Positions 30,736 to 33,512 of a stretch of DNA of 33,796 nucleotides are shown piece after piece (within the stretch, counting starts at the first letter, position 1; each line of letters starts with the position of its first letter). Source of the DNA: Candidatus Acidulidesulfobacter diazotrophicus. GTDB lineage: Bacteria; SZUA-79; Acidulodesulfobacterales; Acidulodesulfobacteraceae. Under the pieces are notes generated by a model, which was given only the letters and a program-made list of their open reading frames with translations, was not told the origin of the DNA and did no database searches. Where the stretch lies: assembly GCA_004195025.1 (NCBI GenBank), contig SGBB01000023.1:1-33796 (forward strand). The letters run 5' to 3'. The position numbers and the translations under genes were made by a program.

Positions 30736-32205
30736 TTATTTTTGCAATATTTCGTCTATTTTATCCAAAACAGCTCTTACGGTTATTTCTGAAATATCGA
30801 ACCTGTCGTCGTAGCCTCGTCCTAATGTTGAAGTGATATAGTCATATTCTTTAAGGTTTTGTTCTATATAAGGGTGAAAAACGGCGGCATAATTGTTATT
30901 TCCTATCTGCCCAGGATAAGGAACGAAATGTCCGTATGACGCTTCGCCAGTGGAGATTACGATTACGGCGGGTTTAGGGGTTGGAGCTGAGGTTGGAGAC
31001 GGAGAGCCGGACGGTATATTGGGAGCGTCAGGCGCGGATGTTGCGGAGGAAATTTGGTTTGTTCGACTTGTGTTTATAATACCTGCGTTTGCAAGCGCCA
31101 TTGCGATATGAGGCGCCATAGTTTCGTTGGAGATAACCAAAGAGGCGTCTTTGACGATATAGAGCAGTTCTATGAGCGAGATTTTTCCTACGGCGTCGTT
31201 AAACGAGGCGTTGTCTGCAAGGTCGGACGGAAAATGTTTTTTAAATTCTGCGGCGTCGTTTAATTCGCTTTTTCCGCCGCACAAGACTATGTGAAAGCCG
31301 TATTTTGTATGGAGGTAGCGCGCAGTTTCGGCAAAGTATTCGGGCGGCCATTTTCTATGCTTAACGCTTGCGCCGATAAAAAACGCGGCGTAAGGAGAGG
31401 AAATTCCAAGTTTTGATTTTAAACCTGCAATGTCCGAAAGAGCAGGGGTTGGAGCTGAGTCGGCGGCGGAGACAGGGGCAGGAGCGACAGAGACAGTAGT
31501 CGCCGCCTGACGCGCCGGCAGATTTATAAAAGGTCCGTTTAAACTTATTCCGGCGCTTATTTTTTCGACTGCGGTTTCAGAAAGCAGTTTTTCAAAGAAA
31601 TTTTTATTTTTATAAAATTCAAACCGGACGTTTTCTGCATCGGGGATTAATTCGTTATAAATTTTTTCGAGGATTTTATTTTTATACGGTTTTGTAAAGC
31701 GGGGGAGCCTGATACTTCCGATTTTTTTGTCGGCTTTTATAAGAAAAGCTAAATCGTTATCGGCGTTAAAAAATTCCCTGCTGAAAGGATGAATAAGTAT
31801 GTCGTATTTAACGGCGGTTATTTCCTTGAATTTTTTATATCTGTAAAAGAAATCCACCGTAAAACTTTTTTTGTCGAGCCAGATAAATTCGTCTATATAG
31901 TCTTTATCCAAAAATTCCGCAAGGTCTTTCCATGCGGAATTGCCGAGCAGCGTTATTTTATAGCTAGCGAATCGGGGGCTTTTTTTTAATACTTCGAAGA
32001 AGTTTCTGAACAGTACGTAATCGCCTATGCCGTCGTGCCGGAATATTATTAGGCTTTTGCTTTTTTCTGAACGAAAAACGCCGCGTACGCCGCGTAAAAG
32101 ATTGCGAAAATAAATCAGTATATCGACCGGCAGGTATATAAAAAGCTTGTTGTATAATTTATACGAACGCCTTTTTATTTTATTTATTTTTTGTCTTAAC
32201 ATCAT
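30736..32205 (-). CDS. GT9-family glycosyltransferase with two Pro/Ala/Ser-rich inserts
   Basis: A 489-residue heptosyltransferase-like GT-B protein. LIIFRHDGIGDYVLFRNFFE (52-71) has the family GD motif. FFIGASVKHRKWPPEYFAET and VISNETMAPHIAMALANAG (357-375) are the donor-side blocks. Two low-complexity inserts interrupt it: residues 229-258 (bases 31432-31521), before the donor domain, and 376-412 (bases 30970-31080), right after the MAPHIAMALANAG helix. Both are rich in Ala, Pro, Ser and Thr, both contain SAPTP in the same frame, and both share a 16-bp DNA repeat. The four-Cys C-terminal pattern of the other GT9 proteins here is absent. It overlaps the upstream GT9 gene by four bases (ATGA). 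Sugar specificity is unknown. Confidence 0.82.
   Translation of the reverse strand: MMLRQKINKIKRRSYKLYNKLFIYLPVDILIYFRNLLRGVRGVFRSEKSKSLIIFRHDGIGDYVLFRNFFEVLKKSPRFASYKITLLGNSAWKDLAEFLDKDYIDEFIWLDKKSFTVDFFYRYKKFKEITAVKYDILIHPFSREFFNADNDLAFLIKADKKIGSIRLPRFTKPYKNKILEKIYNELIPDAENVRFEFYKNKNFFEKLLSETAVEKISAGISLNGPFINLPARQAATTVSVAPAPVSAADSAPTPALSDIAGLKSKLGISSPYAAFFIGASVKHRKWPPEYFAETARYLHTKYGFHIVLCGGKSELNDAAEFKKHFPSDLADNASFNDAVGKISLIELLYIVKDASLVISNETMAPHIAMALANAGIINTSRTNQISSATSAPDAPNIPSGSPSPTSAPTPKPAVIVISTGEASYGHFVPYPGQIGNNNYAAVFHPYIEQNLKEYDYITSTLGRGYDDRFDISEITVRAVLDKIDEILQK
30976..30991. repeat. 16-bp in-gene direct repeat, copy A
   Basis: AGGGGTTGGAGCTGAG at 30976-30991 is identical to 31444-31459. 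On the coding (minus) strand it encodes SAPTP in the second low-complexity insert of the GT9 gene. Confidence 0.85.
31444..31459. repeat. 16-bp in-gene direct repeat, copy B
   Basis: Identical to 30976-30991 and read in the same frame (SAPTP) within the first low-complexity insert of the GT9 gene. The surrounding DNA is clearly G/C-richer than the flanking gene. Confidence 0.85.
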
Positions 32206-33512
32206 TTGTCTAATATTTGCATTTCGTTTATACTCTTTATTATATCTATAGGTTCAATCGAATTCATGCATTCTGGGGCGCTAAGCCCTCTTGGACAGTT
32301 TTCCATCCAGTCGTCGGTACTCCACCAGCAGTTTCCGCACAAGCTTGGGGTGACGGTTATATAGTTTGGAAACCGTGAATAAGAACAGTAGTCGGCATTA
32401 GTCGGACCGAAAAGAACGGCGCAGGGAGTTCTAAGTGAAACGGCAATATGCACGAGTCCGGAGTCGGTGTCGATGTGCAGGGAAGATGCCGCAAGAAGAG
32501 AGGCGGCTTCCTTCAGGGTCGTTTTTCCCCTTAAGTTTAAGTCGATGCCTGTAATGTCGGAGCCGTTGCCGAGGCCGCCGAGCTGAACGACCGTATAGTC
32601 GGGTAATTCATGCTTAAGCATATTTACTAGTTCCTGCCATTTTTGCGGCGGATAAGATTTTGTCGACGAGCCGGTTTTTGTTTTAGTATTTTCGTCCCAT
32701 CCGTCGTGAACGGTGATAAATTTTACTCCTTGCAAATTAAATTTTGCCGTTATCGTCGGTAGCGAATATATATCGATATTTATTTTAAGCGTATCGGCAG
32801 GGGTTGCTATTCCGCCAGTATTGTTAAGGTAAATCGCGCGTGAAAGCCCCATAGCAGTTACGGCGTCAGATAATATGCCTTCGCTGAAAGGACGGGTTTT
32901 AATATATTTTTCGAGATTAGACCGGTTGGTTTTAATGTTTTCGATAATTTTTAAAATAGACGGAAATTTATCCGATATTTTTTTGCGGCTTAATTCATTA
33001 TCATTAATTTCTTCTTTAATGAAAAAAGTATTTAATTTTAAGTCTATATCGTAAAATTTACGCATAAGCGTATAATCCGGCAGGTTTAAAACCCTTCTTA
33101 CGTTAGGCAGAGCCGCCGTAATAAACTTTATGGAGTCGGGCGACCTGTAGAAAACGTCGAAGACTAAATGTCCGTTCGTGTCTTTCGATACGAAGCCGGC
33201 AAAATCCCTTAAAAATCTTATCGCCATGATAGCGTCGCCTATGCCGGCGTTGCCTATGTTGACGGCTATATAACATGTATCGTTCGTTCCGTTTCCAAAG
33301 TATTTCTTTTTAATCGCTTTGCTTTTTAAATTGGTTTTTATTTTTGCGATAGGTATTATGAATAAGTAGAAAAAAGTATATTTAATAAATCTGCCGAACG
33401 GCATGCCGTATTTTAAAAGATATACGATTTTCTTTATCTTTCTTTTAAGAGGCGAGGCGGCAAGCTTTTCAATTTCGGTTTTTCTTATAGATTTTATTTT
33501 TTCTAATTCCAT
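32202..33512 (-). CDS. GT9-family (heptosyltransferase-like) glycosyltransferase
   Basis: A 436-residue GT-B glycosyltransferase. The N-terminal domain has a basic, partly hydrophobic lead (about 28-55), then VNIGNAGIGDAIMAIRFLRD (84-103) with the GD motif. The donor domain has FITVHDGWDENTKTKTGSST, KSYPPQKWQELV, and ASSLHIDTDSGLVHIAVSLR with the conserved Asp/His positions, then CAVLFGPTN. The C-terminus has four Cys in CGNCWWSTDDWMENC and PECM, a pattern shared with other GT9 proteins here and possibly metal-binding. It lies 41 bases after the partial GT9 gene and overlaps the next GT9 start by four bases, so the three form one minus-strand operon. LPS-core or O-chain assembly is the likely role. 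Confidence 0.87.
   Translation of the reverse strand: MELEKIKSIRKTEIEKLAASPLKRKIKKIVYLLKYGMPFGRFIKYTFFYLFIIPIAKIKTNLKSKAIKKKYFGNGTNDTCYIAVNIGNAGIGDAIMAIRFLRDFAGFVSKDTNGHLVFDVFYRSPDSIKFITAALPNVRRVLNLPDYTLMRKFYDIDLKLNTFFIKEEINDNELSRKKISDKFPSILKIIENIKTNRSNLEKYIKTRPFSEGILSDAVTAMGLSRAIYLNNTGGIATPADTLKINIDIYSLPTITAKFNLQGVKFITVHDGWDENTKTKTGSSTKSYPPQKWQELVNMLKHELPDYTVVQLGGLGNGSDITGIDLNLRGKTTLKEAASLLAASSLHIDTDSGLVHIAVSLRTPCAVLFGPTNADYCSYSRFPNYITVTPSLCGNCWWSTDDWMENCPRGLSAPECMNSIEPIDIIKSINEMQILDK

Follow-up and report, generated by a model that had tools for sequence, protein, structure and literature searches.

Why should an otherwise ordinary glycosyltransferase of an acid-mine bacterium be interrupted by two long, in-frame inserts that share an identical stretch of 16 bp? 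The question is raised by a gene near the end of the window, i.e., the whole stretch of 33,796 nucleotides analyzed here, which belongs to a MAG (G000) of 2,459,539 bases in 47 contigs. Gene calls throughout are longest-ORF calls, and all family genomes compared are MAGs. The gene (30736–32205, − strand) encodes a protein of 489 amino acids, and its reading frame passes through both inserts without a stop codon. Residues 258–372 match the Pfam family Glyco_transf_9 (PF01075; E = 3.2e-12; 46.7 bits against a gathering score of 22), and the predicted structure (mean pLDDT 68.3) takes the GT-B fold of known GT9 enzymes, the best PDB matches being 3tov and WaaC 2h1h (TM by target, 0.77 and 0.76, respectively). 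Judged from sequence and predicted fold, the product is an otherwise ordinary, putatively heptosyltransferase-like GT9 enzyme; it shares family and fold with the GT9 heptosyltransferases WaaC of E. coli and 3tov of Veillonella, but differs from them by the two long inserts. An adjacent GT9 gene (32202–33512, − strand; 436 amino acids; Pfam E = 2.9e-12) is also GC-rich (GC 0.40) and is devoid of low-complexity inserts. With these two genes ends a long polysaccharide cluster that comprises Wzz, sugar-nucleotide enzymes, flippases, glycosyltransferases, and a sugar-phosphate transferase. By the measure used, the other ORFs of the window between 1414 and 30726 are free of low-complexity inserts, unlike the genome sample described below, with the sole exception of the ORF at 1414–2370, which has an N-terminal charged low-complexity stretch; these ORFs are perhaps a recent acquisition.

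Insert 1 (31426–31518, − strand; residues 230–260, PARQAATT...ALSDIA), delimited as a low-complexity segment, links the N-terminal domain to the C-terminal one. Insert 2 (30973–31089, − strand; residues 373–411), delimited by alignment, occupies the loop that leads from the helix after the conserved NETMAPHIAMA motif to the next strand, and its low-complexity core spans residues 385–413. Both are rich in Ala, Pro, Ser, and Thr, and their G+C content in 120-bp windows is 0.53–0.58, against 0.30 in the 400-kb genome sample. When mapped onto the structure model, both fall in low-confidence loops, with pLDDT below 50 at residues 233–258 and 378–409, a level also found elsewhere in the model, e.g., at the N-terminus. 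The open frame, the Pfam match, and the local base composition thus bear out the initial annotation, in which two in-frame stretches rich in these four residues had been described as interrupting a GT9 enzyme within locally G/C-rich DNA. Its further proposals, that the inserts might be a self-similar coding insertion that spreads or a phase-variable linker, are considered below.

The most probable reading, in our judgment, is that the inserts are fast-evolving, probably disordered loops, constituting one instance of a genus-wide habit of insertion, maintained through turnover by slippage and duplication that goes uncorrected. Slippage and small in-frame duplications, left uncorrected, would generate such inserts, which would drift quickly and persist because they project from surface loops. 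Homologues of the gene are consistent with this reading. A protein search with the GT9 query gave matches in 40 of 61 genomes, G000 included, many of which are distant GT9 enzymes only, and 11 loci in named contigs, several of which are the same records. Twelve homologous genes were extracted, of which 10 were measured and two are cut by contig ends, and 15 sequences, including that of the window, were aligned. The alignment has two fixed insert places, conserved in position within the group, at which length differs between relatives: the first region measures 56, 56, 42, 42, 43, 52, 65, 23, 31, and 31 amino acids in the 10 genes, and the second, in the same order, 61, 62, 61, 59, 59, 62, 38, 23, 41, and 96 (the last in L012). 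The inserts of L008, L038, and L012 differ from those of the window gene. L010, from the same genus, has short loops with almost no insert, as do the distant homologues L040, L014, and L041 (28–33% identity); in these four, the remark that family members have short loops here was correct. Furthermore, pN/pS is 0.52 in the inserts against 0.24 in the rest of the gene (L003 versus L004) and 0.60 against 0.20 (L003 versus L005), from small counts; amino-acid replacement, scaled to silent change, is thus 2–3 times higher in the inserts than elsewhere in the gene.

The same comparisons bear on the strongest competing explanation, in which the inserts are selected functional linkers that provide, for instance, reach to a membrane surface, or stability or binding at low pH. 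Insert pN/pS values below 1 and insert places that are conserved within the group speak for such linkers; by contrast, sequence, length, and composition are not conserved, L010 manages with almost none in the same genus, and the same habit occurs in enzymes of unrelated roles. This explanation is considered rather unlikely.

Exchange of the gene within the family is likely: in all six relatives for which the genome was sampled (L004, L005, L038, L008, L010, and L012), the gene has a higher GC content than that sample. In the alignment, insert 1 is common to L004 and the window gene, and a C-terminal stretch to L004 and L005; this mosaic pattern suggests mixing of alleles within the family. Recent transfer from a GC-rich outsider was rejected as the source of the inserts, since all homologues reached above approximately 50% identity belong to the family. 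Two copies of the GT9 gene occur in one genome (G013:C33 and G013:C121), 89% and 78% identical to the query, and in L012 (G025:C54), a third linker, at the N-terminal side, contains a perfect tandem repeat of 36 bp in 2.4 copies at 1403–1490, (VSASAPVSPSTQ)n.

The broader finding is on firmer ground: in the sampled stretches, the genus Ca. Acididesulfobacter carries mostly internal Asn-rich inserts in many conserved enzymes. Windows with at least nine Asn in 24 residues were counted in ORFs of at least 150 amino acids. In the G000 sample (400 kb, 16% of the genome, 214 ORFs), such windows occur in 34 of the 214 ORFs and cover 2.40% of residues, 7.8-fold more than in shuffled proteins, and 43 of the 50 segments are internal, lying at least 30 residues from both ends. 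In smaller samples from other members of the genus, Asn-rich ORFs number 18/119 (G004), 10/124 (G002), 3/26 (G003), and 0/15 (G001), and in two other genera of the same family, 5/126 (g6) and 0/55 (g4). The controls gave 1/160 in G050 (GC 0.297), the sole GC-matched control genome, and 0/200 in G039 (GC 0.348); outsiders gave 0/28 (SAR86), 0/49 (G037), 0/7 (an Acholeplasmataceae record), and 0/164 (five GC-rich genomes). These counts leave out G030 (10 kb), G048 (12 kb), and two contigs of G061, each about 2 kb long; polar low complexity occurs in 1 of 7 ORFs of G030 and in 0 of 12 of G048. A residue-neutral measure of low complexity picks out 42 of the 214 G000 ORFs, with 2.83% of residues (8.7-fold over shuffled proteins), compared with 0.85% in G050 (4.5-fold), 1.00% in G039 (5.1-fold), 2.02% in SAR86 (4.2-fold), and 2.45% in the GC-rich set; the contrast between genus and controls is thus weaker by this measure. 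The stricter measures supersede a looser count (148 of 214 ORFs) that takes in membrane segments.

Composition alone, i.e., an AT-driven genome of 30% GC that uses many Asn codons and hence looks low in complexity, might be held to account for these segments. Asn indeed makes up 8.3% of residues in the G000 sample, and segment composition tracks the GC3 of the gene: among 211 low-complexity segments in the family samples, Spearman correlations between segment content and GC3, the latter taken over the gene outside the segment, are +0.49 for A+P+G and −0.45 for N, with p-values that overstate certainty because segments of one genome or gene are not independent. Nevertheless, shuffled proteins of the same composition fall short by the factor given above, G050 has almost no Asn-rich ORFs at a comparable GC content, and composition of this kind leaves the Ala/Pro/Ser/Thr inserts of the GT9 gene unaccounted for, all of which makes this explanation improbable. 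Internal, Asn-dominated inserts in conserved enzymes exceed both composition and the one GC-matched control in this 16% sample. Since residue content follows gene GC, Ala, Pro, Ser, and Thr are expected in the GC-richer GT9 gene, whose GC3 is 0.40 outside the inserts and about 0.41–0.42 overall; in the G000 sample, GC3 averages 0.27 and is 0.41 or higher in 10 of 214 genes.

Twenty of the 34 Asn-rich ORFs were searched against NCBIfam, and 10 exceeded a curated cut-off: RecD2, CbiD, LeuRS, a CRISPR-associated primase-polymerase, Mfd, CysRS, CbiE/CbiT, HolA, MnmA, and an enzyme of the MiaB/RimO family. One ORF (L057:3706–6999), with two Asn-rich stretches, matches both the CRISPR-associated primase-polymerase and, below cut-off, a group II intron-type reverse transcriptase model. 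Among six other GT9 ORFs of G000, four (L064, L066, L068, and L070) have Asn-rich inserts by eye; L065 and the neighboring gene at 32202–33512 have none. In L064 (G000:C6:44177–44944 region), a long alternating Asn–Ala run, (NA)n, occupies the C-terminal part.

LeuRS, compared in 31 genomes, has three insert sites (A, B, and C) in the genus. In the seven genus members, the site A region measures 66, 67, 55, 7, 7, 7, and 7 residues, i.e., four of the seven are as short as the control, and sites B and C measure 27–52 and 20–56. In 23 other family members, the ranges are 8–29 (A), 10–26 (B), and 16–17 (C; the partial G020 lacks this site), and G050 has 7, 20, and 16. The pN/pS of the LeuRS inserts is 0.45 against 0.15 in the rest (G000 versus G006, small counts); as insert values in the two genes lie between 0.45 and 0.60 and not at 1, some constraint may remain. 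At the DNA level, runs of seven Asn codons, (AAY)7, are present in 7/7 genus genomes, 6/23 other family genomes, and 15/212 others, and in-frame tandem repeats in coding DNA exceed those of codon-shuffled genes 8.1-, 8.0-, and 7.1-fold in three genus genomes, 4.7-fold in g6, 2.9-fold in g4, and 2.4- and 3.4-fold in two controls. G122, an unrelated genome (GC about 0.47) with many Asn runs and, in several proteins, poly-Asn linkers close to the N-terminus, was rejected as a second case, the stretches all lying in the first 120 residues and not reflecting the same habit; its Asn-rich ORFs number 1/50 on contigs not picked by a hit and 6/57 on contigs picked by one.

The feature that made the locus conspicuous is the 16-mer AGGGGTTGGAGCTGAG. 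A repeat search located both copies reported in the initial annotation, at 30976–30991 in insert 2 and 31444–31459 in insert 1 (given on the + strand), 468 bp (156 codons) apart and encoding SAPTP in the same frame on the − strand; of the two direct-repeat families of at least 12 nt in the gene, it is the sole exact one. A common 16-mer arose in 0 of 5000 trials when codon order was shuffled within the inserts and in 1 of 5000 when synonymous codons were dealt anew with the protein kept, and a common pentapeptide arose in 72 of 5000 when residues were shuffled. The repeat is thus improbable under codon and synonymous shuffling, and the SAPTP peptide less so, in tests that are after-the-fact, the feature having been picked because it was conspicuous. 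Among pairs of low-complexity segments sampled from three genus genomes, exact sharing of at least 16 bp is rare yet not unknown (1/106 pairs within a gene and 21/6041 between genes). Copying within genes was rejected as a frequent origin of shared stretches, the excess in the mean longest shared stretch being only marginal (8.15 bp versus 7.78 bp; p = 0.02). The closest relative, L004, has the identical stretch in insert 1 only, and its insert 2 reads TCAGCCCCAGCCCCA; insert 2 of L005 reads TCAGCCCCAACCCCA, two silent bases away from the window copy. Across the relatives with 86–90% identical proteins, the 16-mer occurs once in L004 and not at all in L005, L006, and L007, the latter two being partial genes at contig ends, so that among the genes read, identity of the two copies is confined to the window gene. 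On the turnover reading, the repeat would be a leftover, due either to a short stretch copied from one loop to the other or to chance combined with shared codon preference.

Glycosyltransferases are common targets of phase switching, and a phase-variable or antigenic switch, by which the enzyme and hence the surface polysaccharide would be turned on and off through the repeat pair or the inserts, gains some appeal from this background and from the large polysaccharide cluster adjoining the gene. However, no tandem array was detected in the inserts at a TRF score of 30, and with copies 468 bp apart and no microsatellite, the phase-variable linker is unsupported and slippage of a repeat was rejected as its basis; were the two copies to recombine, the conserved C-terminal domain would lose 156 codons with the frame intact, so that a useful switch is unlikely, and the deleted form is absent from the 15 aligned sequences. 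Such a switch is therefore regarded as very improbable.

Rickettsia palindromic elements provide the precedent for in-frame DNA within coding genes, but a comparable selfish element that inserted twice in the GT9 gene and spreads, as the identical 16-mer in two in-frame inserts might suggest, is scarcely credible, because no further copy of the 16-mer exists in the 2.46-Mb genome with up to two mismatches allowed, relatives have one copy or none and different sequence at the same places, and the two inserts, unlike those elements, have neither dispersed copies, nor a common direct repeat of at least 12 nt beyond the 16-mer, nor an inverted repeat or palindrome within either. One 13-nt inverted pair has its arms 469 nt apart, one in each insert. 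The expectation of further inserts elsewhere in the genome held in part: other low-complexity inserts do occur, with a different composition and lacking the 16-mer.

A possible reason why slippage and duplication might go uncorrected is suggested by the repair genes. MutS gave no match in any of the 30 family genomes, whereas 30 of 31 outsiders had one, exceeding the cut-off in 28; MutL exceeded its cut-off (180 bits) in 0/30 family genomes and 28/31 outsiders, and 11 of the 30 gave weak, partial MutL matches that did not go beyond about 32 bits. NucS was not found in the seven genus genomes, and partial matches just over cut-off occur in 2 of 19 family genomes searched. By gene content, the lineage thus appears to be deficient in mismatch repair, having no MutS, MutL, or NucS. 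The family-wide absence of MutS and MutL may have helped the inserts to expand, and this is the least certain step of the proposed mechanism. All 15 outside genomes with (AAY)7 runs keep MutS, which contradicts MutS loss as a necessary cause of Asn runs; together with g4, which lacks MutS and yet has no Asn-rich ORFs among 55, they indicate that the loss is neither necessary nor sufficient. Furthermore, loss in one clade counts as one event, and neighboring Asn codons are no purer than chance (same codon in 0.688 of Asn–Asn neighbors versus 0.675 expected), so that fresh triplet slippage is not visible. Given g4, the MutS-bearing outsiders, and codon purity, lost repair as a cause is attractive but unproven, and is taken as a contributing possibility only. 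Accordingly, the broader proposal, namely that the genus has a malaria-parasite-like proteome whose turning-over loops mirror local base composition owing to a family-wide loss of mismatch repair, with the GT9 inserts as its GC-rich face, is offered tentatively, as the less likely extension of the turnover reading.

Debate over why some genomes fill proteins with low-complexity inserts has mostly drawn on eukaryotes such as Plasmodium and Dictyostelium, and this kind of feature is already known. In PMC7534687, the AT-rich genome of Plasmodium falciparum is described as having pervasive low-complexity regions in which Asn prevails, with short Asn runs depleted inside protein domains. By this description alone, the parasite resembles the genus in combining AT-richness with Asn-prevalent low complexity, many of the Asn-rich segments of the genus lying in conserved enzymes; the genus differs in being bacterial and in having segments richer in Ala, Pro, Ser, and Thr where the gene is GC-richer. 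Two surveys place such segments in many prokaryotes, as in the genus (PMC6821194; PMC1524752). One reports Asn to be heavily under-represented in prokaryotic low-complexity regions (PMC6821194), whereas Asn is the commonest low-complexity residue in the G000 sample and its Asn-rich segments are mostly internal; the other reports Asn to be abundant in simple-sequence proteins of low-GC species only and compares these proteins with P. falciparum (PMC1524752). The text of PMC6776010 contains no mention of mismatch repair, mutS, low-complexity, or asparagine, and the extent of inserts in conserved enzymes of the genus was not found in print among the matches listed in the open-licence literature.

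Annotation should also allow for inserts that break up family matches in this group, as happened when GT9 and LeuRS were searched. More broadly, a comparative system for weighing mutation bias, lost repair, and selection against one another would be available in a family without MutS or MutL, in which one genus with small genomes has such inserts in its repair enzymes and aminoacyl-tRNA synthetases and its sister genera have few.
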